From the NCBI RefSeq assembly GCF_000331245.1, contig NZ_ANFZ01000006.1, forward strand, positions 1 to 64,000: a stretch of 64,000 nucleotides of DNA, read 5' to 3'. The position numbers were made by a program, and so were the translations under genes. This DNA is from Blastomonas sp. AAP53. GTDB taxonomy: Bacteria > Pseudomonadota > Alphaproteobacteria > Sphingomonadales > Sphingomonadaceae. Positions 12,467 to 40,523 of this stretch are shown here, one piece after another (the first letter of the stretch is position 1; each line of letters opens with the position of its first letter). The notes under the pieces were generated by a model. The model was given only the letters and a program-made list of their open reading frames with translations. It made no database searches and was not told where the DNA came from.

Positions 12467-12598
12467 GGGAATGAGCCTCTCTTGGGAGCGTGTCTGTTTG
12501 TCTTGTTCGGGTGTCACCGGTCGGTCGATACACCGCCGGCGCCGCCACCCGTTGCTGATTGAAACCATAAGGACTGTCCGCCTCGTTTCAAGCTGCAA

Positions 12599-14838: not shown

Positions 14839-15918
14839 TTAAGCCGTTTCCGCCGCGATCGCCTGCTCGATCATCCGGCGCGAGCGCACCCCGCCCGCGT
14901 CGATGTTGAGCAGCAGCAGCTTCCGTTCGGGATAGCGGTCGAGGTTCTTCTGCTGGCGCTCGAGCATCTCCATGTCCTCGGCGAAGATCTTGCCCTGGCC
15001 GTCGCGGATCGAATCGGTGAGCTGCGTATCATCCACCGCAAACCGGCGCGCCATGCCCCAGAAATACCAGTGCGAGCCCTCGGTCTCGGGCGTCATGAAA
15101 TCGACCACCACCGAATAGGCCTTGCGGTCGAGCGGCGCATCATAGCCGCCTTCGCCGACCGGTGCGACGCCGACCTCGATCTCGACGCTGCTCGGCAGGT
15201 GGAAATGGCAGACCTGCCAGCGATCGACCGGGCCGTCATCGGGCAGGCCAGCGCCGCGCAATGCCATCGCCCAGAACGGCGGGGCGCTGATCGCGTCCAT
15301 GAAGCGGCTGGTCACCACCTCGTCGCCGACGATCCGGGTCTTGACCGGAGCCTCGTCGATTTCCTTCTGGCCGATGCTGGTCGAATGCACATAGGTCTCG
15401 TGCGTCAGGTCCATCAGGTTGTCGACCATCAGCCGGTAATCGCAAGCGATGTGATACAGTCCGCCGCCATAGGACCAGCCTGTGTCCTCGGCCCATTCCA
15501 GGTGGCGCAGCTTGGCGGGGTCGGCCTGATCGGCATCGCCGGGCCATACCCAGATGAAGCCATAGCGTTCGATCACCGGGAAGGTCCGGATGGGCGGAAA
15601 GCCGCCGACGCGCTGGCCGGGCATGCCAGTCGTCTTGCCTTTGCACCCCATCGCGAGGCCATGATAGCCGCAGACAAGCGCGCCATCGCGCAGGAAGCCA
15701 AGCGAGAGCGGCGCGCCGCGATGCGGGCAGAAATCCTCGAGCGCCGCGACTTCGCCTTCGGGGCCGCGAAAGAACACCATCTGTTCGCCGCAAATGGTGC
15801 GGCCGAGTGGCTTGCCGTCGATCTCGTCCGGCATGCAGGCGACATACCAGGCGTTGCGCGGCCAGGGGGCCGTCGCGCCCTGCGCTGCGCGGTCTTCCAG
15901 ATCGGGGGCGGTGGCCAT
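14839..15918 (-). CDS. vanA: vanillate O-demethylase oxygenase subunit (Rieske)
   Basis: This 359-residue Rieske non-haem iron oxygenase should demethylate vanillate to protocatechuate and formaldehyde. The [2Fe-2S] ligands are C64-P-H66 and C83-x2-H86, and the mononuclear iron site includes H-E-T-Y-V-H. The N-terminal block (R-N-A-W-Y-V-A-C-x-P-D-E-I) and C-P-H-R-G-A-P-L-S-L-G are hallmark VanA sequence. I use the ATG at 15918; the frame is open upstream but crosses the promoter. It is divergent from a VanR-type GntR gene with a palindromic operator between them. No vanB reductase gene lies in this window. Confidence 0.9.
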   Translation of the reverse strand: MATAPDLEDRAAQGATAPWPRNAWYVACMPDEIDGKPLGRTICGEQMVFFRGPEGEVAALEDFCPHRGAPLSLGFLRDGALVCGYHGLAMGCKGKTTGMPGQRVGGFPPIRTFPVIERYGFIWVWPGDADQADPAKLRHLEWAEDTGWSYGGGLYHIACDYRLMVDNLMDLTHETYVHSTSIGQKEIDEAPVKTRIVGDEVVTSRFMDAISAPPFWAMALRGAGLPDDGPVDRWQVCHFHLPSSVEIEVGVAPVGEGGYDAPLDRKAYSVVVDFMTPETEGSHWYFWGMARRFAVDDTQLTDSIRDGQGKIFAEDMEMLERQQKNLDRYPERKLLLLNIDAGGVRSRRMIEQAIAAETA

Positions 15919-15941
15919 GAACGTCTCTCCCTGCAATGTTC

Positions 15942-15957
15942 TTATTGGATCCAATAA
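15942..15957. promoter_or_regulatory. VanR operator
   Basis: TTATTGGATCCAATAA is a perfect 16-bp palindrome containing ATTGGATCCAAT, which I recall as the operator of Caulobacter VanR. It lies 23 bp upstream of the vanA ATG and overlaps the -10 region of a plausible leftward promoter (TTGCAC at 15979-15974, 17-bp spacer). VanR bound here would block vanA, and vanillate would relieve it. Confidence 0.85.
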
Positions 15958-16030
15958 TATCGTTTTGTGATCGGTGCAAGCAGGAACAGGGGGCTTGCCG
16001 CGCGATACGCAACGGCTATGAACACGCGGC

Positions 16031-16720
16031 ATGGATCAAGCGATGAAGCCCGGCCAGCGCGTGCTGTTTGCGCTGCGCAAGATGATCGTTTCGGGCGAGA
16101 TTCCCGATGGCACGCGGATCGCGGAGATCGGCACGGCAGAGCGTTTCGGCGTCTCGCGCATGCCGGTACGCACCGCGCTGCGCACGCTCGAGCAGGAGGG
16201 ACTGGTCGCCCGGCTCGGGCGGCGCGGCTATGCCGCGCGCGGGCCCACGCCGACCTCGATCGAGGATGCGATCGAGGTGCGCGGCGTGCTCGAAGGGCTG
16301 GCGGTGCGGATCATCGCCTCAAGGCCGATTGCGCCCGCCTTTGCGCGCAAGCTCAAGGCGTGTCTGGCGCAAGGCGACGCACTGTTTGCAGGCGACGATT
16401 TCGTGGCCGACGATATCGACCGGTTCTACAGCTACAACCTCGCGTTCCACGACCTGCTGCTCGACGCGAGCGGCAACAGCGCGATCACGGTTGCCCTGTC
16501 GCGCAACAACCACCTCCCGCTGGCCTCGGCAGGCGCGCTGGCCGTGGATTGGGACGACCTCGCCAGCGCCCGCCACCACCTGCACGCCGCGCACCAGGAC
16601 CATCACGCGGTTGCCGCCGCGATCCTTGCAGGCCAGCCGGACGAAGCCGAGTCCCGCATGAGACGCCACGCCCGCGCCGCGCTGATCCCCGGCATGATGC
16701 CGCTGGTCGGGCCGCTTTGA
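16031..16720 (+). CDS. vanR: GntR-family regulator of vanillate demethylase
   Basis: This 229-residue GntR regulator of the FadR/FCD subfamily has an N-terminal winged helix (about residues 10-75, with R-F-G-V-S-R-M-P-V-R-T-A-L-R) and a helical C-terminal FCD domain with metal-binding histidines (F-H-D-L-L-L-D, H-H-A-V-A-A-A). Together with divergent vanA and a perfect ATTGGATCCAAT palindrome, it fits VanR, the vanillate-responsive repressor. The second methionine at 16043 is an alternative start. Confidence 0.85.
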   Translation: MDQAMKPGQRVLFALRKMIVSGEIPDGTRIAEIGTAERFGVSRMPVRTALRTLEQEGLVARLGRRGYAARGPTPTSIEDAIEVRGVLEGLAVRIIASRPIAPAFARKLKACLAQGDALFAGDDFVADDIDRFYSYNLAFHDLLLDASGNSAITVALSRNNHLPLASAGALAVDWDDLASARHHLHAAHQDHHAVAAAILAGQPDEAESRMRRHARAALIPGMMPLVGPL

Positions 16721-19293: not shown

Positions 19294-20010
19294 TTATCCC
19301 CCAACCGCTATCGCAATCCACTCCACCAAAGCCGCGCTGACGGCGTCTGGCGTTTCCATCGGCGCCATATGGCCTGCGCCCTCGAACACGACCATGCGCG
19401 CGTTCGGGATAGCGGCGGCCATCGGTTCATGCTGGTCAGGCGGGCTCCAGCGGTCGAGTTCGCCGACGCCGATCAGGACGGGGCAGGCGATCTGCGGGAG
19501 CAAAGGCGCGGCGTCGGGGCGGTTCACCAGCGCTGTGATCTGCTGGCGGTGAATCGCGGGGGTCATGCGTTCGACCATCGCGTACAGCTGCGCGCGCAGG
19601 ACGGTGTCGCTTTCCAGCAGGCCGGGTTTGACCATCGGCGGCAGCCAGATATCGGCGAGCGCGGTCATGCCTTGCCCGGCGCTGATATCGAGCATCGCCT
19701 GGCGCTTGGGTAGCTCCTCGGCGCTGGCCGGGTGCACGCCGGTATCGAGCAGCGCGAGCCGGGTGACTCGTCCTGGTGCCTGCCGCCAGACCTCGAGCGC
19801 CACGCGCGCGCCCATCGAATGCCCTGCGATCGCAAACCGTTCGGGCGCGAGGCTGAGCACGTGCTCAGCCATCGCGGCCATCGAATCCTGCTGCGTCAGC
19901 GCGGGGATGATGACGTCGTAATGCTCCGACAGGGCAGCAGTCTGATGCTCCCAGACCACTGCATCGCACAGCAGGCCGGGGACGAGGATGACGGTTTCGC
20001 GGGTGCTCAT
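19294..20010 (-). CDS. alpha/beta hydrolase (enol-lactonase-like), last gene of the meta-cleavage operon
   Basis: This 238-residue alpha/beta hydrolase has its nucleophile in G-H-S-M-G-A-R and catalytic His in G-A-G-H-M-A-P-M-E; the acid is probably the Asp of G-E-L-D-R-W. It resembles the enol-lactonase and carboxylesterase group common in aromatic pathways. It is the promoter-distal gene of an 11-gene leftward operon, 4 bp after the cupin gene. It could hydrolyse a lactone or ester intermediate; the exact reaction is unknown. Confidence 0.82.
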   Translation of the reverse strand: MSTRETVILVPGLLCDAVVWEHQTAALSEHYDVIIPALTQQDSMAAMAEHVLSLAPERFAIAGHSMGARVALEVWRQAPGRVTRLALLDTGVHPASAEELPKRQAMLDISAGQGMTALADIWLPPMVKPGLLESDTVLRAQLYAMVERMTPAIHRQQITALVNRPDAAPLLPQIACPVLIGVGELDRWSPPDQHEPMAAAIPNARMVVFEGAGHMAPMETPDAVSAALVEWIAIAVGG

Positions 20011-20014
20011 GATG

Positions 20015-20512
20015 TCAGGGCTCTACATCGGGCAGGGGCACCCCGTCCACTGTCACCGGTGCGGCCTCGATCAGCACGAAGACGATCCGGCATGTCTCAG
20101 TGGCCGACGGATTGCGCCACAGGTGGATCGTGCCGCGCTGGACGATGATGTCGCCCGCTTGTGCTGTGGTCACAGCGCCGTCGTCGAGCTCGAGCTCGAC
20201 CGCGCCCGACAGCACGATGCCGTAATCGATGCTGCTGCTGCGGTGGAATGGGGACGTGCCCCCTGGAACCATGTCGACGATGCGGATCACCGACCCCTGG
20301 TGCAGCGTTAGCCCGGCTTCGCGAAGGCGGCCGTCGGTCTCGTCGTTGTTGTCGGCGGGAACGGTGGCGGTGGTCCACACGAGGCTGAACGCTGCGTCGC
20401 CCGAGGGGATCGGCTCGACCGGCAGCAGGTCGTCGCTGCGGATGATCGCGCGGCCGCCCGCGTCATGGCCGGTGACGATGCGGCGGACGGGAGGCGAGGC
20501 GGGGGCGCTCAT
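20015..20512 (-). CDS. cupin-domain protein
   Basis: This 165-residue single-domain cupin has a barrel motif around F-H-R-S-S-S-I-D-Y-G and a second motif near G-D-I-I-V-Q-R-G-T-I-H-L-W. It is too short for a two-domain gentisate or homogentisate dioxygenase. Such cupins can bind a metal and serve as isomerases, decarboxylases or small-molecule sensors. Its start overlaps the stop of the FAH-family gene by 4 bp (ATGA), so the two are coupled. Its role in the pathway is not known. Confidence 0.8.
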   Translation of the reverse strand: MSAPASPPVRRIVTGHDAGGRAIIRSDDLLPVEPIPSGDAAFSLVWTTATVPADNNDETDGRLREAGLTLHQGSVIRIVDMVPGGTSPFHRSSSIDYGIVLSGAVELELDDGAVTTAQAGDIIVQRGTIHLWRNPSATETCRIVFVLIEAAPVTVDGVPLPDVEP

Positions 20513-21474
20513 CCCTTGACCACCTTCTGGTCGATCGCGCCGAACAGCACGCTGCCATCGGGCAGGCGGCTTTCCATGCGCACGGTATCGCCAAAGCGCA
20601 TGAACTGGGTGCTGGGCTTGCCTTCGTCGAGCATCTCGATGCCGCGCCGCTCGGCGATGCACGAAGAGCCGATCTCGCGGAAGTTGCTGTTCGAGACCGT
20701 GCCCGATCCGATGATCGTGCCCGCGCACAGCGAACGCGTGCTCGCGGCATGCGCGACCAATTCGTGGAAGCCGAACTCCATGACCCCGCCCAATGCATCG
20801 CCGAACCGCTTGCCGTTCCAGTCGACGCTGAGTGGAAGATGCACGCGGCCTTCGCGCCAGGCGTCGCCCAGCACGTCGGGCGTCACCGCGAATGGCGCGA
20901 ACGAACAGGCGGGCTTGGCCTGTACCCAACCGAAGCCGGTCTTCATCTCGATCGGCGCGATGGCCCGCAACGACCAGTCGTTGATCTGCACCAGCAGCTT
21001 GATGTGCGCCATCGCCTCATCAGGAGTGACGCCCATCGGCACGAAATCGGTAATGATGCCGAACTCGCCCTCGAAATCGATGCCGTCTTCCTCGCGCGGC
21101 AACGGAACATCAGCGGTAGCGGAGAGGAACTCGTGCGACAGGCCCTGATACATCAGCGGACGCCCCGGCGGCGGCGGTTCGGTACCGAACAATGTCTCCA
21201 TCAGCTCGCCATGGCTGCGGAAGGCGGAGCCATCGAGCCATTGCCACGCGCGCGGCAACGGCGCGGCAAAAGAAGCGCTATCGGTGCCGTCGCCTTCGCC
21301 AGCCGCCAGCCGGTCGGCGAGGGCGCGCAGTGCGGGTTCGGCGGTGGCCCAGCTCTCGATCGCGGCCTGCAGCGTGCCAGCGACGGCGGTGGCAGGGAGG
21401 TAATGGCTGCCATCGGCGCTGACGACGACCAGCGCGCCATCGGGCATACCGTTATCCAGGGTGGCGAGTTTCAT
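20509..21474 (-). CDS. fumarylacetoacetate hydrolase family protein
   Basis: This 321-residue FAH-fold enzyme has metal ligands in D-F-E-G-E-F-G and I-N-D-W-S-L-R and the loop G-T-I-I-G-S-G-T-V-S-N near the C-terminus. Members cleave C-C bonds in beta-diketo acids (fumarylacetoacetate, acylpyruvates) or hydrate dienoates in meta-cleavage pathways. It lies in the operon with an extradiol dioxygenase, so a lower-pathway hydrolase or hydratase role fits. The ATG at 21474 is chosen because it gives the standard N-terminus. Confidence 0.87.
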   Translation of the reverse strand: MKLATLDNGMPDGALVVVSADGSHYLPATAVAGTLQAAIESWATAEPALRALADRLAAGEGDGTDSASFAAPLPRAWQWLDGSAFRSHGELMETLFGTEPPPPGRPLMYQGLSHEFLSATADVPLPREEDGIDFEGEFGIITDFVPMGVTPDEAMAHIKLLVQINDWSLRAIAPIEMKTGFGWVQAKPACSFAPFAVTPDVLGDAWREGRVHLPLSVDWNGKRFGDALGGVMEFGFHELVAHAASTRSLCAGTIIGSGTVSNSNFREIGSSCIAERRGIEMLDEGKPSTQFMRFGDTVRMESRLPDGSVLFGAIDQKVVKG

Positions 21475-21497
21475 GGGGTTGGCGGTCCTTTCGTGAA

Positions 21498-22416
21498 TCA
21501 AAGGTCGGCAAGGGCGTGATCGACCAGGGCAGCGAGGCTGCCATCGTGGTGCAGGCCCAGAGCGTCGGCGGCGAAGGTGGTGAGCGGCGGCTGGCAGCCA
21601 AAGGCGGCTTCTATCGCCGGATCGGGTGCGTAGCCGACCAGTGCCGCTTCGTGCCCGGTCTGGCGAGCCACCTCGGCCACCAGATCGCCGATGCGCACAC
21701 GCAGCGCGGGCAGGTTGAGGCGGCGGCTGGCAGGATCGTTCTTCAGGTCGAGCGCCGCAACCAGTTGTCCGGTCAGCGCGCGACGCGACAGCAGCCAGCA
21801 CGTCGCTTGCGCAGAAACCGGCAAGGTGATCGGCTCGCCTGCCTTGATTGCGTGAAACAGGTTGCTCAGGAACGCCGATTTCATGCCGGACGGAGCCATC
21901 GGACGCGCGACAATGCCGGGCAGCCGCAGCGAAAGCCCGCGCACTCCGCCGCGCCGGGTCAGCGTGGCGATCCACTCCTCCATCATCGCCTTGTGCGCGC
22001 CGTAGCGCAGCATGGGGCGCACAAGCGTATCGTCATCGACATGCGCAGGCAGCGGTTCGCCGAACACCGCGATGCTGCTGGCGAACAGCAGGCGCGGGGC
22101 GTTGCCGTGCGCGGCGGCGGCGTCGATCAAGGCCATGGGGGCAGCGACATTGATCCGCGCGGCCAGCGCCGGGTCGGTTTCCGCAGCTCCCCCGGGGATG
22201 GTGGCAAGGTGGATGATCGCGCTCAGGGGCTCTGCGGTCAGCTGTGCGACCAGCGCCGGATCGTCGATTTCGCCGGGCAGGGCGGAGACGCTGGACAGGC
22301 CGGCGCAATCCAGGTTCGTCCGGTCAGTGGCGATGACACGGTGGTGCGGGGCGAGCGCGCGCACCAAAGCCTGACCGACAAAGCCGCCCGCGCCGGTGAC
22401 GAGGATCGGAGGGCGT

Positions 22417-22427
<11 letters not shown>
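21498..22427 (-). CDS. NAD-dependent epimerase/dehydratase family protein
   Basis: This 309-residue extended-type SDR has a nucleotide-binding motif V-T-G-A-G-G-F-V-G (residues 7-15) and the catalytic Y-G-A-H-K. The start at 22427 places the Rossmann motif at the N-terminus as expected and overlaps the upstream SDR gene by 11 bp. Related D-erythronate-type dehydrogenases act on hydroxy acids. In this operon it could oxidise or reduce a hydroxylated pathway intermediate. The substrate is unknown. Confidence 0.82.
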
Positions 22428-23184
<757 letters not shown>

Positions 23185-23187
23185 CGA

Positions 23188-23967
23188 TCAGTCTTCGATG
23201 ATCGCCACTGCACGCGTCCAGCCCGCCGAAGCGCCGCGGATCTTGTGCGGAAAGCAGCTGACGGTAAAGCCGTGCGGCGGCAGGCTTTCCAGATTGTGCA
23301 GCTTTTCGAGGTGGCAATAGCCGATGTCGCGTCCGGCCTTGTGGCCCTCCCAGATCAGCGATGTGTCGCCGCTTTCGGCGACCTTCTGGGCGGTGTAGCT
23401 GAACGGGGCATCCCAGCTCCAGGCATCGGTGCCGGTAACGCGGATGCCGCGTTCAAGCAGATACATCGTCGCTTCATAGCCCATGCCGCAGCCGGTATCG
23501 ACAAAGTCGGGCTTGCCGACCGCGCCGCCCGCAGCGGTGTTGACCAGCACGATCTCGAACGGCTGCAACTCGTGGTCGATGCGCTTGAGCTCGGCCTCGA
23601 CATCGGCGGCGGTGACGACATAGCCGTTTTCGAAATGGCGGAAGTCCAGCTTCACGCCGGGGTTGAAGCACCATTCGAGCGGCACCTCGTCGATCGTGAT
23701 TGCGCGCTGGCCGCCATCCATGGTCGGGTGGAAATGCCAGGGCGCATCCAGATGCGTGCCGTTGTGCGTGGTCAGCGTCACCCATTCGGCAGCGGCAAAG
23801 CCCGCGCCGTCGGGCAGTTGCTCGGCGGTGACTCCGGGGAAGAAATGGCCAAGCTCGGTCACCGTATCGGCATGCTGCTGATAGGTGATCTTGGGTCGCA
23901 TGAACGGCGGATCGGTGATCACGTCGTTTTCCAGATAGATCGAAAGGTCGATGAATTGGCGGGCCAT
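23188..23967 (-). CDS. cyclase-family (kynurenine-formamidase-like) metallo-hydrolase
   Basis: This 259-residue protein carries the family motif H-N-G-T-H-L-D-A-P-W-H-F, whose His and Asp residues bind the metals. Related enzymes hydrolyse N-formylkynurenine or other amide, ester and enol-lactone substrates, including isatin hydrolase. It sits 3 bp from both neighbours in the operon. A ring-opening hydrolysis step is plausible, but sequence alone does not show which. Confidence 0.86.
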   Translation of the reverse strand: MARQFIDLSIYLENDVITDPPFMRPKITYQQHADTVTELGHFFPGVTAEQLPDGAGFAAAEWVTLTTHNGTHLDAPWHFHPTMDGGQRAITIDEVPLEWCFNPGVKLDFRHFENGYVVTAADVEAELKRIDHELQPFEIVLVNTAAGGAVGKPDFVDTGCGMGYEATMYLLERGIRVTGTDAWSWDAPFSYTAQKVAESGDTSLIWEGHKAGRDIGYCHLEKLHNLESLPPHGFTVSCFPHKIRGASAGWTRAVAIIED

Positions 23968-23970
23968 GGT

Positions 23971-24420
23971 TTATCCTTTTGTCAGCGCGGCGCGCACTGC
24001 AGGTGGTGTGATGATCAATCCCAGAAGCGCCCCGTATGCGACCTTGATAGCAAATGCGGCGGTCCAGTCGAAGGTCACGATACCGCTGAGCTTCAGCGTC
24101 CCTATGACGACACCGGCCAACCCCAATGCCAGCAGTGCTAGCAGGATAGCGCGCACGACGATCGAGCGAACGCTTGGCGGCGTGCCCGGAAGCTGACCTT
24201 TCGCAATGGCAGCGCGGGCCTGCAGCGCGGGCATCAGCGCCGCCATAAAGGCTGCTGCCCCCGATTGCGGCAGAAAATCGAGCGCCAGATTGTTGGGTGC
24301 CCATACCGCAATCGGATCGATGCTGCCGAAAACCAGCAGGAAGAACCCCGCGCTGATCGCCATCGTGATGACGACCGAGATCATCGTCTGCTTGCGCACA
24401 TAGCCGCGCGGACCGGTCAT
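23971..24420 (-). CDS. small membrane protein, four predicted helices
   Basis: This 149-residue protein has hydrophobic segments near residues 12-32, 50-65, 87-108 and 118-138, and no recognisable enzyme motif. It could be a transport accessory or a membrane anchor for the pathway. Its start overlaps the stop of the DUF2218 gene by 4 bp. I do not recognise the family with confidence. Confidence 0.7.
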   Translation of the reverse strand: MTGPRGYVRKQTMISVVITMAISAGFFLLVFGSIDPIAVWAPNNLALDFLPQSGAAAFMAALMPALQARAAIAKGQLPGTPPSVRSIVVRAILLALLALGLAGVVIGTLKLSGIVTFDWTAAFAIKVAYGALLGLIITPPAVRAALTKG

Positions 24421-24737
24421 CCGTCGGTCCAGTTATAGGCCAGCGGCACCTCGCGGAAGGCAAAGCGGTCGATATGCCGCTCCAGCGCACCCTTCAGGCC
24501 ATCGCGCTGCCCTTCGGCGCTGGCGGAGATGGTGCAGACGAGCGCGTCATCCTGAGCATCGAGCGTCACCAGCGCGTCGGCGGGCCAGTCCGCCCCGCGC
24601 GCATCCTTGGCAAAGGTGATCTCGCCATGATCCTTGTCAAAGGTCACCGGCAGATTGTGCTCCCAATGCTTGCAGACCTGCTGCAGATATTTGGACGCGC
24701 TCTGCGTGGGGATGCGGGCGGTGGCGACATAGCTCAT
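24417..24737 (-). CDS. DUF2218 domain protein
   Basis: This is a 106-residue protein matching the DUF2218 pattern: A-T-A-R-I-P-T near the start, Y-L-Q-Q-V-C-K-H-W-E-H, and an R-F-A-F-R-E C-terminal stretch. The family is small, cytoplasmic and of unknown function, often beside siderophore or redox genes. It is 2 bp after the alpha/beta hydrolase gene in the operon. Its Cys and His residues could bind a metal, which is conjecture. Confidence 0.75.
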   Translation of the reverse strand: MSYVATARIPTQSASKYLQQVCKHWEHNLPVTFDKDHGEITFAKDARGADWPADALVTLDAQDDALVCTISASAEGQRDGLKGALERHIDRFAFREVPLAYNWTDG

Positions 24738-24739
24738 GG

Positions 24740-25906
24740 TCAGGCGGCTCCCGATGTGTGACCGCCCAGCGTTTCGGCGAACCAGTCGGCGATATAGTCG
24801 CGACCATAAGACATGTTGTCCGCGCCGACATGCTCAACACCGCCCTCGCGCGCGGTGAAGATCTTCAGCTCGCGCTGCGGGCTGTTGGTCAGCTGCTCAT
24901 AGCTCTGGTGCGCGTATTCGAGGCCGATCTGACGATCGTGCTCGCCGTGCGTCACCAGGAACGGCACCTTGATCCGCTCCATCACGCCGTTCAGCGTCAT
25001 GTCGGCCGACTTGACGTGGAAATCGTCCATGTCGGTTGCGCCGAACACCCACATCACATGGCCCCAATAATGCGGGACGGGGTTCTCGCCCTCGCGGCGC
25101 AGACGCTTCTGCTGGACTTCGGCCCAGTTGTGGTTCGCACCCCAGACCGCGCCGGATGCAAAGCGCGGCTCGAAGGCGACGGCGCGTGGGGCGAAGTGAC
25201 CGCCCAGCGAAATGCCGGTCATGCCGATGCGGGCAGGGTCGACATCCGGCTGCTGGAGCAACCAGTCCACTGCGGGCGTTGCCCATTTTTCCGAATGCGG
25301 CGTCGCCGGCAGGTTGTAGATCCGCAGCGCCTCACCGGTGCCCGGCTGGTCGACGCACAGGGTGGAAATGCCGCGCGCAGCCAGCGCATGCGGCAGCTTC
25401 GACCAGTAGAGCAGCTCCTTCGAGCTATCGAGGCCGTTGCAATACATCACCACGGGCTTGGGGCCTTCGCCCGGCGCGCGGCAATACAGCGCAGGATATT
25501 CGCTGCCTTCGTACGGGATCATCACACGCTCGACCGGGTGCTTGCCCAGCGTCATCGCCTTGGCAAACGTGTCCTGCGCCTTGGCGAAGGTGGTTACGCG
25601 CTCGGGATTGCCATGGCCCTGCATGCGTTCGCCGACCAGCAGGTACAGCGCAGCACGCTCCAGCTTGGCGGCGGCCGACAGGCTGCGGCCCCTGGCTTCG
25701 TCTTCTGCGGCAAGGCCGATCAGCTTGTCGCCCATCGCCACCCATTGCTGCAGGAACTGCGCCGTTCCGGCATCGGCGCCATTGGCCGCCGCATCGCGGA
25801 TCGGCTGGCACATGTCGATGATCTCGCCGATCTGGCCGCCGCTTTCGATCGCAATGGAGACCGACAGGTTCCAGATATAATTGGGGAAATATTCAAAAAG
25901 GGCCAT
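24740..25906 (-). CDS. alpha/beta hydrolase related to 2,6-dihydroxypseudooxynicotine hydrolase/FrsA
   Basis: This 388-residue hydrolase has a long helical N-terminal cap (about residues 1-130) before the alpha/beta core. The nucleophile is in G-I-S-L-G-G-H, the acid in T-H-G-E-H-D and the histidine in G-V-E-H-V-G. This architecture matches the FrsA and DHPON-hydrolase group, which includes C-C bond hydrolases. It follows the extradiol dioxygenase gene by 5 bp, where a meta-cleavage product hydrolase would be expected. I infer it hydrolyses the ring-fission product. The ATG at 25906 gives the family N-terminus. Confidence 0.85.
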   Translation of the reverse strand: MALFEYFPNYIWNLSVSIAIESGGQIGEIIDMCQPIRDAAANGADAGTAQFLQQWVAMGDKLIGLAAEDEARGRSLSAAAKLERAALYLLVGERMQGHGNPERVTTFAKAQDTFAKAMTLGKHPVERVMIPYEGSEYPALYCRAPGEGPKPVVMYCNGLDSSKELLYWSKLPHALAARGISTLCVDQPGTGEALRIYNLPATPHSEKWATPAVDWLLQQPDVDPARIGMTGISLGGHFAPRAVAFEPRFASGAVWGANHNWAEVQQKRLRREGENPVPHYWGHVMWVFGATDMDDFHVKSADMTLNGVMERIKVPFLVTHGEHDRQIGLEYAHQSYEQLTNSPQRELKIFTAREGGVEHVGADNMSYGRDYIADWFAETLGGHTSGAA

Positions 25907-25911
25907 GGGGC

Positions 25912-26814
25912 TCAGACTCCTGCAGGCTGGAAAAGGCCTGCGTCGGGCGCAGGATGGGGCATGGTTTGCGGGCCGCCGATGCCGATGCCCCATTGGTCCA
26001 TCACCAGCGGCGCAGGAGCATGCACGGTCGCCTGCCATGTGGCGTCGTCGACCTCTTCCAGATCGGCGGTATATTCGACCGCGAAGCCGCCCGGCGTCGT
26101 GAAATAGCTGAAGGTGTTGTTGCCAGCGGTGTGGCGACCGGGGCCCCAGCGAATATCGGTGCCCTTCTGCTTGAGCCGGTGGATGCCGCGCATCATGTCA
26201 TCGACACCCAGCATGTCATAGGCGACATGGTTGAGACACGCAGGGCCCGGCAGCAGGGCGATGCGGTGGTGCCACTGGTTGCAGCGCAGGAAGCACATGA
26301 AGTCGCCCAGCCAGTCGCTGACCTTGAAGCCCAGCACATCGGTGAAGAAGCGCACCATCTCCTGATGGTCGGGCGAATGCAGCACGATATGGCTGATCTT
26401 CTGCGGAATGCCTTCCCAGCGGGTCAGTTCGCGCGACGTGCCACGTGCGACATCGCTCGAAATCTCGAACGGCAGGCCATCCTTGCTGAAGAAACGAAAG
26501 CCATAGCCGCCGCCATGTGTTTCGAGTTCCCTAGGCGCGAACACGATCTGGCAGCCATAGTCGGCCACCTTGGTGTGCAGCGCATCGACATCGGCGCGGC
26601 TGTCTGCTGCCAGGGTGATAATGTCGATCCGCTGCTGGTCTGCCGCGCGCAGGCGCACGACGTACAGCTCGTCATTTCCTTCGGCGGCAAAGTGCAGCAT
26701 GCCGTCCTTTTCGCCGGCGTCCTTCAGACCCCAGACATCACGATAGAATGCTGCCTCTGCAGCCAGATCGGTGACGGCATAGCCGACATGGCGGATTTCA
26801 CTTACGCGTGCCAT
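25912..26814 (-). CDS. type I extradiol (VOC-fold) ring-cleavage dioxygenase
   Basis: This 300-residue two-module vicinal-oxygen-chelate protein has the iron-ligand set of BphC-like dioxygenases: His142 (I-S-H-I-V-L), His196 (L-N-H-V-A-Y-D) and Glu247 (A-V-E-Y-T). The N-terminal module lacks the metal set, as usual. It should cleave a catechol-type ring next to the hydroxyls. It is the second gene of the operon, after the FAD monooxygenase that would provide the dihydroxylated substrate. The substrate is unknown. Confidence 0.88.
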   Translation of the reverse strand: MARVSEIRHVGYAVTDLAAEAAFYRDVWGLKDAGEKDGMLHFAAEGNDELYVVRLRAADQQRIDIITLAADSRADVDALHTKVADYGCQIVFAPRELETHGGGYGFRFFSKDGLPFEISSDVARGTSRELTRWEGIPQKISHIVLHSPDHQEMVRFFTDVLGFKVSDWLGDFMCFLRCNQWHHRIALLPGPACLNHVAYDMLGVDDMMRGIHRLKQKGTDIRWGPGRHTAGNNTFSYFTTPGGFAVEYTADLEEVDDATWQATVHAPAPLVMDQWGIGIGGPQTMPHPAPDAGLFQPAGV

Positions 26815-26858
26815 GATATAGATAACTCCTTGAACCCATTAGAAAGACTGCCAGCCGA

Positions 26859-27977
26859 TCAGATCGGCTCAGCTACCTTGATGAACATTTCCCGGGTGGC
26901 CGTGGCATTGTCGACCAGCGGTCCCTTGCCGATCTGGCCAAAGCAGATGGCGCGCGAGGATTCGACGATGTAGCGGCAGCGCTCGAAGCGACGGTCGCGA
27001 TAAGCGGTGAGCGCATCCTCGATCGTCTCGGCTGCGAGCAGTTCCTCGGTCAGCACCAGCGCATCCTCGATCGCCATGCCGGCGCCCTGACCCAGATGCG
27101 GCGTCGTGGCATGCACGGCATCGCCGAGCAGGGCGACCCGGCCCTTGTGCCACGGACCTTCCAGGAACATCCATTCGAGCGGCTTGTAGACCACCTCGTC
27201 GTCCTGGGTGATCTGGCCGACCAAGGCCTGGATGGCGGGCGAGGGGACACCGGCGATCTTGCTGCGCATGGCGCTGGCAAGATCTTCCTTGGCATACCAC
27301 GGATTGCCCGGCTCGGGCGTGGTGACATACATGTACATCAGCTCGTCGGACAACGGCACCAGGCCGATGCCGGTTTCGCCTTCATAGGCCTGCAGTGCGA
27401 TGACATCGGGCGTGCGCTGGAAATTGTAGCGCCACACCGACTGGCCGGTGAACTCGGGCCTGGGTGCATCCGGAAAGATGGCGCTGCGCGTCTGCGAATA
27501 CAGGCCGTCGGCACCGATCACCAGATCGTAGCGGCCCGTGCTGCCATCGCTGAACGTGACCGATACGCCTTCGCCATTATCGTCGAGCACGTCTGCGGTG
27601 ATGCCGAGGCGGATGTCGGCGCCTGCACCCTTGGCACGGTCGCCCAGCACCTTGTGCAGCGCGCGCCGTCCGATACCGACATTGCCGGGATAGCCTTCGA
27701 CCAGCCGGGGCGTGGGGATGTCCGCAACGCACTGTCCGGTGGGGATATAGACCTGGACGCGGTCAAAACCGAAGCCGGCGCTGATGTAATCGTCGATCAG
27801 GCCCAGCTCGGTCATCGCGCGGACAACATTGCCCTGCTGGATGATGCCGACGCCGTAGACGGACCAGTCGGGGTCGCGCTCGATCACGTCGACGTCAAAG
27901 CCTTTGCGGCGCAGGGCGATCGCAGACGTGAGCCCACCGATGCCACCACCAATGACCAGAATTCGCATGTCTTTCAT
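26859..27977 (-). CDS. FAD-dependent aromatic monooxygenase, first gene of the meta-cleavage operon
   Basis: This 372-residue class A flavoprotein hydroxylase has G-G-G-I-G-G-L near the N-terminus (FAD), the D-L-V-I-G-A-D-G segment (FAD/NADPH) and G-D-A-V-H-A-T-T-P (FAD ribityl). It probably hydroxylates a phenolic ring to a catechol or hydroquinone. The start at 27977 has GAGAGGG eight bases upstream. It opens an 11-gene leftward operon and is preceded by a LysR gene and an inverted ATCCAT-N17-ATGGAT motif. It resembles 3- or 6-hydroxybenzoate-type hydroxylases, but the substrate cannot be read from sequence. Confidence 0.87.
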   Translation of the reverse strand: MKDMRILVIGGGIGGLTSAIALRRKGFDVDVIERDPDWSVYGVGIIQQGNVVRAMTELGLIDDYISAGFGFDRVQVYIPTGQCVADIPTPRLVEGYPGNVGIGRRALHKVLGDRAKGAGADIRLGITADVLDDNGEGVSVTFSDGSTGRYDLVIGADGLYSQTRSAIFPDAPRPEFTGQSVWRYNFQRTPDVIALQAYEGETGIGLVPLSDELMYMYVTTPEPGNPWYAKEDLASAMRSKIAGVPSPAIQALVGQITQDDEVVYKPLEWMFLEGPWHKGRVALLGDAVHATTPHLGQGAGMAIEDALVLTEELLAAETIEDALTAYRDRRFERCRYIVESSRAICFGQIGKGPLVDNATATREMFIKVAEPI

Positions 27978-28075
27978 GCAGTAAACCCTCTCCCGTGCCC
28001 GGCACCAGCGCCCGGGCATCTTCATCCCGCTTTCAATAGGGGGTGAGGGTATAATCTGTAAATTTTATTGTATTG

Positions 28076-28104
28076 ATCCATAGGCATTAGGTTTATGAAT
28101 GGAT
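28076..28104. promoter_or_regulatory. candidate LysR site upstream of the meta-cleavage operon
   Basis: ATCCAT-N17-ATGGAT is an inverted pair about 100 bp upstream of the FAD monooxygenase start. Its GATCCAT half also occurs at the other LysR-controlled promoter (29023-29029). Confidence 0.4.
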
Positions 28105-28110
28105 TGGGCC

Positions 28111-29016
28111 TCACTGGATGGCGCTGTCGCGGCGCAGTTCTTCACGGAGCCATTTCAGCCCCTCATCGGCGCTGCGCGCGTGGTTGAACTGCATCATTTC
28201 GCGCATGACCGGAAAGGCGAAGGGAATGGGCGCGATGGCCAAAGGAAACATGCGCGCCATGCACAAAGCCAGCCGCTCGTGCATCAGCGCCAGCCGGTTG
28301 GTCTCTATGATCAGCCAGGGGACGACGGTGAACGACGATGCAGTGACATCCATCCGCCGGAAGCGACCCGATTGCTCCATCGTGCTGTCGGCAAATGCGG
28401 CGGTGCGCTGGTTCCCCATCTGGATGCCGACATGTCCGGTCTGCATCAGGTCGTCTTCTGTCAACGGCCGGCTGAACACCGGGTTCTTGGTCCATCCGAC
28501 CACGACATGCCGTTCCTCGAACAGCAGTTCGGCGGGTTGGCTGGGGTTGATGAACTCTTCCGGGGTGATCAGCAGGTCGAACGCCCCTTGCGCGATCAGG
28601 TCTGCGCTGCCGTCCGACGGCAGCACCGCTTCGAGCCGGATGCCGGGCGCGATCTGTGCCAGCCTGCGCGAAAGCGGGGCGATCACGGCGGCGGTGATAT
28701 AGTCCGATGCGATCAGCCGGAAGATGCGTTGAGAGGTCGCCGGGTCGAAGTTGGTCGAGGTGGTGATCAGTGCATCGATTCGGCGCAAAGTATCCTGCAC
28801 GCCTGGAACCAGCGATTCGGCATAAGGTGTCGGGAACATGCGCTTGCCGTGCAGCACCAGCAGATCATCGCCGAAATAGTCGCGCAACCGGCCCAGTGCG
28901 GCGCTCATGGCCGGCTGGCTCAGGTGCAATTGCTCTGCAGCACGCGAAACGCTGCGCGTCTCCATCAGCACGTTGAACGCGACCAGCAGGTTGAGATCGA
29001 GACCCTTGAAGCGCAT
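28111..29016 (-). CDS. LysR-family regulator (NodD-like branch)
   Basis: This 301-residue LysR protein begins with the D-L-N-L-L-V-A-F-x-x-L-x-x-x-R-S-V-S pattern seen in the NodD/PcpR/LinR branch, whose members respond to phenolic compounds in several sphingomonads. The winged helix covers about residues 5-65. It lies between the 11-gene operon, same strand, and the divergent TonB receptor gene, and probably controls both. The inducer is presumably the pathway substrate. Confidence 0.88.
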   Translation of the reverse strand: MRFKGLDLNLLVAFNVLMETRSVSRAAEQLHLSQPAMSAALGRLRDYFGDDLLVLHGKRMFPTPYAESLVPGVQDTLRRIDALITTSTNFDPATSQRIFRLIASDYITAAVIAPLSRRLAQIAPGIRLEAVLPSDGSADLIAQGAFDLLITPEEFINPSQPAELLFEERHVVVGWTKNPVFSRPLTEDDLMQTGHVGIQMGNQRTAAFADSTMEQSGRFRRMDVTASSFTVVPWLIIETNRLALMHERLALCMARMFPLAIAPIPFAFPVMREMMQFNHARSADEGLKWLREELRRDSAIQ

Positions 29017-29046: not shown

Positions 29047-29153
29047 GATGATTAAAACAAAAGATTTCACCTATGGCTAGCCCTTGCCTTACATCCACAG
29101 TCAACAAGGCGATGGCCCGTGGAGGCTTTCGGCGCATTTTGGGGAGATGAAAA

Positions 29154-31460
29154 ATGAAGGCATGTTTGCTGGCGACCACCTTTCTGGCCGCATTGGCCAT
29201 TCCAGGGGCCGCATTCGCGCAGGACGCCACCACCAACGCCGCTGAAGATCCGCAGAGCGAAGGGCTGAGCGAAATTGTCGTCACCGCCCAGCGCCGCGAG
29301 GAAAGCCTGCAGCGCGCCGCCGTTGCGGTGACTGCCGTCACTGGCGATGATCTCACCAAGTCGGGCATTACCGAAACCGCCAACCTGGGCCGCCTGGTCC
29401 CGTCGCTGGTGGTCCAGCCCACCGGCGGAACGACCAGCTTCTTCCTGCGCGGTGTCGGCACCAATTCGCAGAACTCGTTCGCCGAAAACGCGGTCGCGTT
29501 CAACTTCAACGGCATCTATGTCGGCCGCCCCACCGCGCCTGCTGGCGTGTTCTACGATCTGGAACGCGTCGAGGTGGTAAAGGGACCGCAGGGCACGCTC
29601 TATGGCCGCAACGCCACCGGCGGCGCGATCAACGTCATCCCCAAGAAGCCGGTGCTGGGCACATTCAGCGCCGAAGGCTTGTTCGAGTATGGCAATTACG
29701 ACAGCAAAAAGGCCTCGCTGGCGCTGAACGTTCCGCTCGGTGAAACCGTTGCGCTCCGCGTGGCCGGGCAGATCGTCGATCGCGATGGCTTCATCTCGGA
29801 CGGCTATGACGACGACAAGGGCGAGGCTTTCCGCGCATCTTTGCTGATCGAGCCATCCGACATGTGGTCGATGACGCTGGTTGCCGATTACTACAACCAG
29901 CGCGGCAAGGGTGCAGGCGCGGTGCTGCTGCCCGAAGCACGCTATGCCGTTCCGCCGCTGGAAGATCGCGTGAGCATTTCCGATCCGCGTGCGCAGGCAT
30001 CGATCCGCCAGCTGGCATCGGGCATCTTTGCTCCGCCGTTCTGCGGTGGCTTCGGTAATTTCGTCAACAGCGGCTGTGTCGCTCTGGCGGGAACCGACGG
30101 TTTCCTCGACAACCAGTTCTTTGGTGTCAGCGCTACTGTCGTCGGTGACATGGGCTTTGGCACGCTGACCGTCATTCCGGCCTATCGCCGGTCCGACGTG
30201 AGCGTTCTGACCTATCTGCCGGGCTTTGCCGGTACGATCCAGGATGTCGCCGAGCAGACCTCGCTGGAAGTGCGGCTCGCCTCGAACGAAGACCAGCGGC
30301 TGCGCTATGTCCTGGGCGCATTCTATTTCGGCGAAAACCAGGTCACCGAGAACTTCTTTCGCCAGGGCAACATCTCGACGACCCGCTTCACGCCGCGGCT
30401 GAGCACGGAAAGCATCGCCGCGTTCGGCCAGCTGACCTTTGACATCGCCGATACTCTGCGCATCGTCGCGGGTGGCCGCTATACCAGGGAAGACAAGGAG
30501 CAGTTCACCTCCGTCGCCGCTGGCGGACTTCCCGGTCCCATCAACCCTCCGCTCAGCGCGCCCTTTACTGGTGATCTTTCGTTCGAGAAGTTCACTTGGA
30601 AGGCCGGACTGGAATGGGATGCCGGGCCAGCATCTTTGGTCTATGCCAATGTTGCGACCGGCTTCAAGTCGGGCGGCTTCTTCGTCGCCCAGCCACCTGC
30701 CAACACCTTCGCTCCCGAAGAGCTGACCGCCTATACGGTCGGTGCCAAGAACCGCTTCTTCGGCAACAAGCTGCAGTTGAACATCGAAGCGTTCTACTGG
30801 GACTACAAGGACCAGCAGATCACGTTTGTCGGCGGCGTGCGCACCGCAGGCGGCATCTTCGCGCAGGGATCGACCACGGTCAACGCGGGCAAGTCGCGCA
30901 TCTATGGCGCCGAGTTCGAGGCCAAGTTCGCGCCCAGCCGCAATGATCTGTTCAATCTCAACGTCCAGTATCTCAACGGCAAGTACAACAGCCTGACAAC
31001 GGCCAACTTCTCGCCCACCGGCGCGCCGGTCACGACGGGATGCACCACCCTGGGCAGCCGCCTGGCCAATCCGGGCGTCAATGGTGCGCGCTTCTTCGAC
31101 ATCGATTGCTCGGGACGGCCGACGGTCAACTCGCCGAAATGGGCGATCAACCTGGGGTATGAACGCACGTTCGAGCTGAACGGCGATCTGGACCTGATCT
31201 TCGGCGCACGAGGGAATATCGAAAGCAGCCGGTTCCTCAACTCGAACTATCGGCCCGAGGAGCGTCAAGGCGGTTTTGCCATGGCTGATGCCTATTTGAC
31301 GCTGGAAAGCGCAAGCGGCTGGAATGTGACCGGCTTCATCAATAACATCACCGATGAAGTGGTGCTGGCGCGCGCGGGCACCCGCCCGATCCTCGACTTC
31401 CCGGTGGGCACGCTGCGCCCGCCGCGGACCTATGGCGTGCGGTTCGGGTTCAACTTCTGA
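29154..31460 (+). CDS. TonB-dependent outer-membrane receptor
   Basis: This 768-residue receptor has a signal peptide (A-A-F-A-Q, cleavage near 23), a plug domain starting at I-V-V-T-A-Q-R-R-E-E, and a beta-barrel ending in aromatic F-G-F-N-F. It belongs to the large sphingomonad group that takes up aromatics and plant-derived compounds rather than only iron chelates. It is divergent from the LysR gene and so probably imports the substrate of the 11-gene operon. Its stop overlaps the start of the metallo-hydrolase gene (TGATGG). Confidence 0.92.
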   Translation: MKACLLATTFLAALAIPGAAFAQDATTNAAEDPQSEGLSEIVVTAQRREESLQRAAVAVTAVTGDDLTKSGITETANLGRLVPSLVVQPTGGTTSFFLRGVGTNSQNSFAENAVAFNFNGIYVGRPTAPAGVFYDLERVEVVKGPQGTLYGRNATGGAINVIPKKPVLGTFSAEGLFEYGNYDSKKASLALNVPLGETVALRVAGQIVDRDGFISDGYDDDKGEAFRASLLIEPSDMWSMTLVADYYNQRGKGAGAVLLPEARYAVPPLEDRVSISDPRAQASIRQLASGIFAPPFCGGFGNFVNSGCVALAGTDGFLDNQFFGVSATVVGDMGFGTLTVIPAYRRSDVSVLTYLPGFAGTIQDVAEQTSLEVRLASNEDQRLRYVLGAFYFGENQVTENFFRQGNISTTRFTPRLSTESIAAFGQLTFDIADTLRIVAGGRYTREDKEQFTSVAAGGLPGPINPPLSAPFTGDLSFEKFTWKAGLEWDAGPASLVYANVATGFKSGGFFVAQPPANTFAPEELTAYTVGAKNRFFGNKLQLNIEAFYWDYKDQQITFVGGVRTAGGIFAQGSTTVNAGKSRIYGAEFEAKFAPSRNDLFNLNVQYLNGKYNSLTTANFSPTGAPVTTGCTTLGSRLANPGVNGARFFDIDCSGRPTVNSPKWAINLGYERTFELNGDLDLIFGARGNIESSRFLNSNYRPEERQGGFAMADAYLTLESASGWNVTGFINNITDEVVLARAGTRPILDFPVGTLRPPRTYGVRFGFNF

Positions 31461-32428
31461 TGGCGGGGGGCGCCATCGTGTCGGTGCTGGCAGCCTTGCT
31501 GGCCGCTGCACCGGCTGTGGCACAACCAGTGCCTCAGGGGGATGGTTTCGTCACGCTGGGCACCATGGGGGGGCCAGTGCCCGCGCCCGACAGGGCGCAG
31601 CCATCCAATGCGCTGATCCATCAAGGCCAGGTGTATCTGGTCGATGCAGGCGACGGGACCGTACAGCAGCTGGCGCGCGCAGGGATCCTGCTGCCCCGCG
31701 TCCGCGCGGTGTTCCTGAGCCATCTGCATGCCGACCACACCGGCGGGCTGTCCGCCGTGCTAGCCTTACGCAACCAGACCAATGTGCGCGATCCCATCAC
31801 CGTTTATGGTCCACCAGGGACGCGCGAGCTGGTGGGGGGCATGGTCGCATCGATGCAGCCTGCAGCGCATGTCGGCTATGGCATTCCGGGCCAGCCCTGG
31901 ACTCCGCCTGCCGACACGGTCAGCGTGATCGAGCTGGCCGATGGCGAGCGCGTGCCGCTCGGCGACATGGCGGTGACGGCAGCGCAGAACTCGCATTATG
32001 ACTTCGCGCCGGGCAGCGTGGAAGACCGCAACTACAAGTCGCTGAGCTTCCGCTTCGATCTGCCGGGTCGCTCGATCGTCTATACCGGCGATACCGGGCC
32101 GAGCGCGGCGGTCGAAACGCTGGCGAAGGGCGCGGACCTTCTGGTCAGCGAGATGATCGACATGGGCGGCACCATGGCCAATGTCGCGCGCAATTCACCC
32201 AACATGCCGCCCGAGGCGAAGCAGCGGCTCGAACAGCATCTCTCCACCCATCATCTGACGCCCGATGCCGTGGGGCAACTGGCTAAGCGCGCCGGCGTCA
32301 AGGCGCTGGCGATCACGCATTTTGCTGCAGGCACGCCCGATCCTGAGCGGACCAAAGGCTATGTCGCGCAGATCCGGACGCATTTTCAGGGGCCGGTCAC
32401 GCTGGCCAACGACCTCGACCGGTTCTGA
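31460..32428 (+). CDS. secreted metallo-beta-lactamase-fold hydrolase
   Basis: This 322-residue MBL-fold protein has a signal-like N-terminus (cleavage near A-V-A-Q-P, residue 22) and the dinuclear zinc motif H-L-H-A-D-H-T-G-G, with further ligands in Y-T-G-D-T-G-P and T-H-F-A. It resembles periplasmic arylsulfatase/lactonase-type MBL proteins. Overlapping the receptor stop, it is probably co-translated and may act on the incoming substrate, for example by ester or lactone hydrolysis. It ends 7 bp from the convergent ligI gene, with a small CTGAGC-GGC-GCTCAG fold between. Confidence 0.85.
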   Translation: MAGGAIVSVLAALLAAAPAVAQPVPQGDGFVTLGTMGGPVPAPDRAQPSNALIHQGQVYLVDAGDGTVQQLARAGILLPRVRAVFLSHLHADHTGGLSAVLALRNQTNVRDPITVYGPPGTRELVGGMVASMQPAAHVGYGIPGQPWTPPADTVSVIELADGERVPLGDMAVTAAQNSHYDFAPGSVEDRNYKSLSFRFDLPGRSIVYTGDTGPSAAVETLAKGADLLVSEMIDMGGTMANVARNSPNMPPEAKQRLEQHLSTHHLTPDAVGQLAKRAGVKALAITHFAAGTPDPERTKGYVAQIRTHFQGPVTLANDLDRF

Positions 32429-32435: not shown

Positions 32436-34421
<1,986 letters not shown>

Positions 34422-34429
<8 letters not shown>

Positions 34430-35093
34430 ATTTCAGGCCCATCTCTGCCAGACGTGGGCGCATGTTGTAGATGTCGAGCCCCAGTTCACCTGCCGCCAGC
34501 CGCTGGCGCTTGGCCTCTTCGGCGGCTTCGCGCGCCTGCGCCTTTTCGAGCACGGAGGCGGCATCGGCGCGCTTGACCACGCACACGCCATCGTCATCGG
34601 CGACGATGACATCGCCGGGTTCGATCGCGGCACCGGCGCACACGATCGGCACGTTGACGCTGCCGAGCGTGTTCTTGACCGTCCCTTGTGCAAACACCGC
34701 CTTCGACCAGACCGGAAAGCCCATCTGGGTGAGATCGCGAACATCGCGCACGCCTGCATCGATCACCAGCCCGCGACAGCCGCGCGCCATCGCACTGGTC
34801 GCCAGCAGATCGCCGAAATAGCCATCGACGCACGGGCTGGTGGGGGTGAGCACCAGAATGTCGCCCGGCTGCAACTGCTCGATCGCGACATGGATCATCC
34901 AGTTGTCGCCCGGGGGCGCCGAGATGGTGACCGCATTGCCCGCGATCCGCGCACCGGCATAGATCGGGCGCATGTGATGCGCGAGCAGGCCGATGCGGCC
35001 CTGCGCCTCGTGCACCGTCGCGACGCCCGCCGCGCCAAGGCCATCTACCACCGCAAGATCGGTGCGCTCGATATTCTGGACCACAATTGCCAT
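34422..35093 (-). CDS. ligK: 4-carboxy-4-hydroxy-2-oxoadipate aldolase (RraA-like)
   Basis: This 223-residue class II aldolase of the RraA-like fold should split 4-carboxy-4-hydroxy-2-oxoadipate into pyruvate and oxaloacetate, the last step of the pathway. The metal/substrate loop [10 protein letters not shown] and [11 protein letters not shown] are present. The ATG at 35093 follows AAGGAG. It is the first gene of the leftward lig operon and divergent from the LysR regulator. Confidence 0.9.

Positions 35094-38332: not shown

Positions 38333-38336
<4 letters not shown>
37311..38336 (+). CDS. ligJ: 4-oxalomesaconate hydratase
   Basis: This 341-residue amidohydrolase-fold enzyme has the metal motif I-D-C-H-G-H-Y and a C-terminal F-G-S-E-M-V-G-A-V-R-G, the same length as LigJ of SYK-6. 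It adds water to the tautomerised oxalomesaconate, giving 4-carboxy-4-hydroxy-2-oxoadipate for LigK. It overlaps ligA by 4 bp (GTGA). Confidence 0.92.

Positions 38337-40519
<2,183 letters not shown>

Positions 40520-40523
<4 letters not shown>

Follow-up and report, generated by a model that had tools for sequence, protein, structure and literature searches.

The operon and its control region

This article deals with an operon of eleven genes in the first 64,000 nucleotides of contig NZ_ANFZ01000006.1 from Blastomonas sp. AAP53 (this whole stretch is called the window below). We consider it likely that the operon is a regulon for the meta-cleavage of the A-ring of flavonoid-class compounds, of the kind known from the fde and ifc gene clusters.

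The eleven open reading frames (ORFs) lie on the minus strand, from 27977 down to 19294, with intergenic gaps of 44, 5, 2, -4, 3, 3, -11, 23, -4, and 4 bp (the FAH-family gene is taken to start at the ATG at 21474; a start one codon further in makes its gap 26 instead of 23 bp). A LysR gene of the same orientation precedes the first gene by 133 bp, and a TonB receptor gene runs divergently from that LysR gene. An earlier note on this DNA, made from the letters alone, had described eleven genes on one strand with no gap above 44 bp, flanked by a LysR gene and a divergent TonB receptor, which the ORF coordinates bear out. The family labels given there also hold (Pfam and PDB matches). Its view of the flanks ended at the TonB gene, however, and so missed a set of protocatechuate 4,5-cleavage genes, pobA, a vanA-like gene, and operator-like sites. 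The features of the operon and its control region are the following.

26859..27977, minus strand: FAD monooxygenase (FMO), PF01494; PRK06847 subfamily at 476.8 bits (cut-off 372); GGGIGG and GDAVHATTP motifs
25912..26814, minus strand: two-domain type I (VOC) extradiol dioxygenase, PF00903; PDB 3b59 at 493 bits
24740..25906, minus strand: C-C hydrolase resembling 2,6-dihydroxypseudooxynicotine (DHPON) hydrolase; best PDB match 2jbw, E 1.5e-19
24417..24737, minus strand: DUF2218 protein, accessory; PF09981 at 94.6 bits (cut-off 29.1)
23971..24420, minus strand: small protein of 149 amino acids, hydrophobic by eye and probably in the membrane, accessory
23188..23967, minus strand: cyclase-family hydrolase, PF04199; HNGTHLDAP motif
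22417..23184, minus strand: SDR oxidoreductase, PF13561
21498..22427, minus strand: epimerase-like SDR, PF01370; D-erythronate dehydrogenase-like at 193 bits, below the cut-off of 325
20509..21474, minus strand: FAH-family hydrolase, PF01557 and PF18288
20015..20512, minus strand: cupin, PF07883
19294..20010, minus strand: second alpha/beta hydrolase, PF12697; PcaD-like, below cut-offs
28111..29016, minus strand: NodD-like LysR regulator, about 39% identical to an annotated NodD1 and up to 41% to NodD2 over its full length
28053..28077, minus strand: nod-box-like half site upstream of the operon, 18 of 24 positions; shuffle p 0.001
29051..29075, plus strand: nod-box-like half site upstream of the TonB gene, 18 of 24 positions
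29154..31460, plus strand: TonB-dependent receptor (TonB receptor models, all below cut-off)
31460..32428, plus strand: metallo-beta-lactamase-fold protein, PF12706, probably secreted (signal peptide by eye)

The ring-cleaving and hydrolytic enzymes have kept their key residues. His142, His196, and Glu247 of the VOC dioxygenase are invariant in a six-sequence alignment, and the C-C hydrolase retains a GISLGG nucleophile motif together with an invariant Asp and His, features shared with its nearest solved relative, DHPON hydrolase (2jbw). The latter differs in belonging to a nicotine pathway, in which we know of no ring-cleavage partner. The reaction of DHPON hydrolase releases the acyl chain of a dihydroxypyridine, which makes the C-C hydrolase a good candidate for the removal of an acyl chain here as well. 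The 149-residue protein has no Pfam match.

Judged by gene content, the sequence of hydroxylation, cleavage, and hydrolysis that the earlier note had read from these enzyme types is right, and so is its remark that the classical lower trio is lacking. None of the eleven operon proteins matched the 2-oxopent-4-enoate hydratase, HOA aldolase, or acylating dehydrogenase families in Pfam and curated models (the curated-model scan took in all operon proteins except the cupin, the DUF2218 protein, and the 149-residue protein). A classical catechol meta-cleavage lower pathway (dmp/xyl) was thus dropped on gene content.

Conservation of the operon

Homologs of the VOC dioxygenase (E ≤ 1e-50) are present at 49 places in 45 of 249 genomes from the same family, the own genome included. 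Conservation was counted in 20 stretches, each about 20 kb long, that came from 19 VOC-positive genomes and were mostly the closest matches, with at least 60 bits taken as a match (L-numbers label the relatives' genome stretches that were compared with the window). The C-C hydrolase is found in 18 of the 20, the FAH enzyme in 16, the FMO in 15, the cupin in 13, and the cyclase in 10, while 19 stretches hold either cyclase or cupin. The epimerase-like SDR (5 of 20), the membrane protein (4), and the DUF2218 protein (3) are rarer. From these counts we take the core to consist of FMO, VOC dioxygenase, C-C hydrolase, FAH enzyme, and cyclase or cupin, and regard the DUF2218 and membrane proteins as accessories. 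The same gene order does occur elsewhere, as the earlier note had proposed to check: L148 and L149, and only these among the 20, carry all eleven genes in the same order, and farther relatives keep a subset of the core. The DUF2218 gene adjoins the C-C hydrolase gene in L267 and L268 too, and homologs of the 149-residue protein stand beside the C-C hydrolase in L046, L153, and L164. The metallo-beta-lactamase-fold gene, which begins where the TonB gene ends, has a homolog beside the FMO in L267, L268, L269, and L270, so its product may belong to the regulon.

Related clusters include those of Burkholderia anthina, Azospirillum sp. B510, Roseomonas mucosa, and Pseudomonas sp. CIP-10. The Burkholderiales, Azospirillum, and Marinobacterium stretches are looser relatives (C-C hydrolase 50-60% and cyclase 69-75% identical), and in a Nitrospirillum stretch the C-C hydrolase is 73% identical. 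Near the related clusters of Sphingobium TomTYG65 and Pseudomonas CIP-10 there are a beta-glucosidase gene and a glycoside hydrolase family 3 gene, which we count in favor of the flavonoid reading.

Some relatives show partial or altered versions of the operon. In the Variovorax stretches L179, L180, and L215 the genes for C-C hydrolase, cyclase, FAH enzyme, and epimerase occur together, in L179 and L180 with no FMO or VOC gene detected, which suggests that the lower genes form a portable module. On a plasmid of Roseomonas mucosa, an IS5 element interrupts the FMO gene (L183, 11203-13309), and the first step of that cluster may therefore have been lost. Plasmid pNL2 of Novosphingobium aromaticivorans (L184, overlapping L051) carries relatives of the FAH enzyme, cupin, and SDR that are 62-67% identical and adjoin hisD and another C-C hydrolase homolog.

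Relation to the ifc and fde pathways

The claim of the earlier note that the gene set matches no pathway was too strong. In the excerpts of PMC11069340 used here, ifc is a daidzein-induced isoflavone cluster of Variovorax sp. V35 with an FMO, a VOC enzyme, a DHPON-hydrolase-like alpha/beta hydrolase, and cupins, and its authors note a resemblance to the fde genes of Herbaspirillum seropedicae. The FMO IfcA 8-hydroxylates isoflavones; the glyoxalase-type IfcB gave a product peak matching a compound named X2, though substrate remained; and two cupins consume X3, which is 2-hydroxy-5-(4-hydroxyphenyl)-4H-pyran-4-one (PMC11069340). According to the same excerpts, the gene for the step from X2 to X3 was not found, and conserved ifc genes occur in Sphingopyxis among others. 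As for fde, excerpts of PMC11303751 describe FdeE as active on flavanones, flavones, isoflavones, and flavonols and say that the naringenin route reaches protocatechuate. Its regulator FdeR is of the LysR type, and the title of a work cited in PMC10799723 calls it "NodD-like".

All four enzyme types described for ifc (FMO, VOC dioxygenase, DHPON-like hydrolase, and cupin) are present in the Blastomonas operon. Going by the published gene descriptions, the operon shares with ifc the presence of this set in one cluster and, putatively, the cleavage of the A-ring; it differs in having one cupin instead of two and in its cyclase, FAH enzyme, DUF2218 protein, and small membrane protein, which are unnamed in the ifc excerpts. 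With fde of H. seropedicae SmR1 it has in common an FMO (FdeE there), a putative enzyme for A-ring dioxygenation (FdeC there), and a NodD-like LysR regulator; genes for protocatechuate, the compound that the fde route is said to reach, adjoin the operon. The differences are that FdeR is described as having 14 potential sites of the T-N11-A type (PMC10799723) and that the next pathway is pca there but protocatechuate 4,5-cleavage in Blastomonas. No report of this sphingomonad operon came up among the titles and abstract openings listed from the open-licence literature.

A NodD-like regulator and nod-box-like sites

The helix-turn-helix of the LysR regulator is 59-65% identical to that of three NodD proteins and 55% to that of NahR, and its effector domain 32-36% and 23%, respectively. 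Among solved structures, phmmer matches it best to LysR-type regulators, for example 2uye and 1utb, which we take to be DntR. In a LysR tree, 14 sphingomonad regulators form a clade of their own (96/99).

Operator-like sites were scored with a nod-box half-site consensus of 24 positions, which was checked on three rhizobial records; its best matches there reach 17-21 of 24 and lie upstream of nodD1, nodZ, nolE, and nodB. The top two half sites of the entire window (18 each; the next scores 15) are those of the FMO and TonB control regions, and the region of the former is conserved in the close relatives L003-L008. The two control regions again supply the two best sites of each stretch in L148-L150 and L155, where the FMO side scores 16-17. 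In L046 the top site is in the control region and the second-best ties with another site, and in L158 (20) and L166 (19) the best site of the stretch is at the FMO promoter. In L047, L153, L154, L157, L160, L161, L164, and L165, the best site of the stretch is not at the FMO promoter.

A shuffling test covered 15 FMO promoters with 1000 dinucleotide shuffles each (set aside were L151, L152, L159, L162, and L163, with no FMO match at E ≤ 1e-60; L048 and L167, with an FMO under 55% identity; and the near relatives L148-L150 and L005-L007). Six promoters have p < 0.05 (the window, L046, L155, L156, L158, and L166). The combined Fisher p is 5.7e-8, with the 15 promoters counted as independent although some share a genus, and permuting the columns of the consensus 1000 times never gave a sum as high as the observed one. 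As a control, the NahR intergenic region scores 13 of 24. The full 47-bp nod box fits less well than the half site (best window match 23 of 39 positions, promoter p 0.005). In short, regulator identity and half-site scores resemble the rhizobial NodD/nod-box system, but the Blastomonas sites adjoin a catabolic operon and a TonB receptor gene instead of nod genes. A pattern search of the whole genome gave two matches at 0 mismatches and one at 2; we discount it as circular, because the two sites had themselves served, in part, to build the pattern.

Neighboring genes for the probable digestion of a 4-hydroxyphenyl ring

Beyond the TonB gene lie genes of protocatechuate 4,5-cleavage and pobA, and beyond the other end of the operon lies a gene for a putative O-demethylase.

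32436..33320, minus strand: amidohydrolase, probable LigI, PF04909; 4-sulfomuconolactone hydrolase model at 210.5 bits, below the cut-off of 500
33317..34429, minus strand: 4-oxalomesaconate tautomerase (LigU/GalD type); NF033377 at 534.7 bits (cut-off 440)
34422..35093, minus strand: 4-carboxy-4-hydroxy-2-oxoadipate aldolase (LigK); TIGR02798 at 393.2 bits (cut-off 304.5)
37311..38336, plus strand: amidohydrolase, probable LigJ, PF04909; no NCBIfam match, placed by its neighbors
38333..38743, plus strand: protocatechuate 4,5-dioxygenase alpha subunit (LigA); TIGR02792 at 186.2 bits (cut-off 108.6)
38743..39585, plus strand: class III extradiol dioxygenase beta subunit (LigB), directly after ligA; NF009903 at 533.2 bits (cut-off 317)
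39582..40523, plus strand: Gfo/Idh-type dehydrogenase (LigC-like), PF01408; 87% identical to the Sphingomonas sp. R1 gene that follows ligB
40529..41698, plus strand: 4-hydroxybenzoate 3-monooxygenase (PobA); TIGR02360 at 590 bits (cut-off 538.7)
14839..16032, minus strand: VanA-type Rieske oxygenase, probable O-demethylase, PF00355 and PF19112; 74% identical to one beside the R1 cluster
16031..16720, plus strand: GntR/FCD regulator adjoining the VanA-like gene, PF07729 and PF00392; 59% identical to the R1 homolog

LigA, LigB, LigU, LigK, and PobA all exceed their NCBIfam cut-offs, and the assignments of LigI and LigJ rest mainly on gene position. These genes are a neighboring pathway, the sphingomonad lig pathway, and not part of the operon itself. 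Together with pobA they would digest a 4-hydroxyphenyl ring.

The linkage recurs. On a plasmid of Sphingomonas sp. R1, homologs of LigA, LigB, LigC, PobA, VanA, and the GntR regulator stand beside its copy of the operon, and lig genes are directly syntenic with the operon core both there and in L266-L270. When 30 of the 45 VOC-positive genomes were searched for LigU (E ≤ 1e-40) and LigB, each was present in 27. The ligU gene lies at most 35 kb from the VOC gene in 12 of these 27 genomes (six of the 12 belonging to the window's own genus), representing 7 of 16 genera, which gives a binomial p of 1.2e-8 at an assumed chance of 2% per genus (70 kb of about 3.5 Mb) and of 6e-6 at 5%.

Proposed pathway

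The NodD-like regulator with its nod-box-like sites, the adjoining pobA and lig genes, and the type of bond cut by DHPON hydrolase, which A-ring cleavage would be expected to leave, are our grounds for a flavonoid-type substrate. The data themselves establish which genes are present, their conservation and linkage, and the operator-like matches; from them we infer regulator binding, the individual reactions and their order, and the substrate, and the operon probably works like the fde/ifc pathway. The NodD-like LysR protein would bind the nod-box-like sites and switch on operon and TonB receptor together. The FMO would hydroxylate a resorcinolic or phloroglucinolic A-ring beside an existing hydroxyl, putatively at the 8-position as in fde and ifc. 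The VOC dioxygenase would then open the ring at C8-C8a, leaving a hydroxypyranone that bears a 1,3-dicarbonyl acyl chain, and the DHPON-hydrolase-like enzyme would cut this chain off. The cyclase-family enzyme (a putative pyranone lactonase), the cupin, or both may open the pyranone, and the two SDRs may oxidize a flavanone-derived hydroxyl to a ketone. The FAH enzyme, a candidate beta-diketone or acylpyruvate hydrolase, and the second hydrolase would cleave the 1,3-dicarbonyl to 4-hydroxybenzoate, which PobA and the adjacent lig enzymes would carry to central metabolism. Finally, the VanA-like oxygenase may demethylate methoxylated substrates.

If this holds, the operon supplies candidates for the C-C hydrolase and pyranone-opening steps missing from the ifc/fde route, among them the X2-to-X3 step left open by the ifc authors. 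A-ring and B-ring degradation would also be joined in one island, and an operon whose VOC dioxygenase has homologs in 45 of 249 sampled genomes of the family would gain a probable substrate class, a regulator, and a route of uptake.

A further idea is more tentative and, in our judgment, somewhat doubtful: that sphingomonads have a nod-box regulon without nodulation, in which a NodD-family flavonoid sensor drives a flavonoid operon and its own TonB receptor. Because flavonoid breakdown in Herbaspirillum is likewise under a NodD-like regulator, the NodD/nod-box switch of root-nodule symbiosis may originally have served the catabolism of flavonoids. Among the titles and abstract openings listed from the open-licence literature, which does not take in the original fde papers, there was no report of a catabolic operon controlled by nod-box sites. 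Nod-box-like operators outside rhizobia would make the origin of the NodD switch testable.

Counter-evidence and alternative substrates

Several observations speak against a flavonoid regulon. The likeness to fde and ifc comes from published gene descriptions instead of sequence alignment, and, in the excerpts of PMC11069340, disrupting the DHPON-hydrolase-like gene of ifc left daidzein degradation unaffected. In the Variovorax loci L179 and L180, neither an FMO nor a VOC dioxygenase was detected along with the lower genes. The LysR tree leaves the placement relative to NodD open, so that the likeness rests on pairwise identity. Nine of the 15 FMO promoters are without a significant half site, unrelated sites in the rhizobial stretches score up to 16 of 24 (equal to some relatives' FMO sites), and a control LysR intergenic region of Massilia scores 15. 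In 15 of the 27 genomes, ligU lies on a different contig or more than 35 kb away. Lastly, related clusters of Azospirillum and Massilia contain DUF1302, DUF1329, and MMPL genes, which go with hydrophobic substrates.

The substrate could be another plant phenolic that combines a resorcinol-type ring with a 4-hydroxyphenyl ring, such as a stilbene, dihydrochalcone, or aurone; chemistry and wiring would be alike, and the inducer would not be a flavonoid in the strict sense. The adjoining pobA/lig genes and the logic of the C-C hydrolase suit any such compound, and NodD-like regulators need not bind flavonoids. We nevertheless think this unlikely, as the published clusters with this enzyme set act, in the excerpts at hand, on naringenin and isoflavones, and as stilbenes and dihydrochalcones would offer no pyranone ring to suit a DHPON-type hydrolase and a cyclase-family enzyme.

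Less credible is a single-ring phenolic lipid or benzoquinone (of the alkylresorcinol or sorgoleone type), with the lig genes as unrelated neighbors. Such a substrate fits the hydrophobic-substrate genes just mentioned, and a plasmid of Burkholderia anthina SO82, from the rhizosphere and root exudates of sorghum, bears a related cluster. An orcinol-type route, moreover, uses the same types of enzymes: an FMO, an extradiol dioxygenase, a C-C hydrolase, and an acylpyruvate hydrolase. It has no need, however, of a cyclase, a cupin, two SDRs, or pobA, and leaves the recurrent lig linkage unexplained; in addition, the identity of the Burkholderiales-type enzymes (L171-L180) to those of Blastomonas is no more than about 31-60%, the cyclase excepted (69-75%). 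That the operon serves an unrelated aromatic, its nod-box resemblance reflecting LysR sites common to a wide subfamily, is very improbable: it would suit the open tree, the nine promoters, and an 18 of 24 site beside the LysR gene of the Azospirillum-type locus L169, but not the low NahR score or the coincidence of the window's top two sites with the two control regions.

Search for ifc and fde loci and other observations

Loci in other families were searched for the true ifc and fde clusters. In Variovorax genomes the C-C hydrolase profile matches 51 of 101 (E ≤ 1e-15) and the VOC profile 23 of 101 (E ≤ 1e-40); in the family of a Noviherbaspirillum genome, the VOC profile matches 10 of 294. 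No ifc or fde locus was recognized among the 20 hydrolase regions and 15 VOC regions compared, with recognition resting mainly on BLAST to a small annotated set, nor did the Pfam matches of ten proteins (L220, L221, and L225) allow such an identification. By eye, L243 and L244 look like gentisate-type clusters.

A Massilia-type cluster with an amidohydrolase, a VOC enzyme, an MhpA-like FMO, and an FAH enzyme (L044, L052-L131) was first thought to be fde-like. It was set aside as a different family because a C-C hydrolase homolog was not found in 78 of 80 stretches (the best 80 of 571 loci; L125 and L126 have one) and because its VOC enzyme is 30-39% identical to that of Blastomonas.

Elsewhere in the window, an ORF resembling OLD-family nucleases (17132-19108, plus strand), with AAA_15 and OLD-like TOPRIM domains, separates the operon's end from the VanA/GntR genes, and genes of the M16 peptidase and penicillin-amidase families adjoin each other at 9542-14746 (minus strand).

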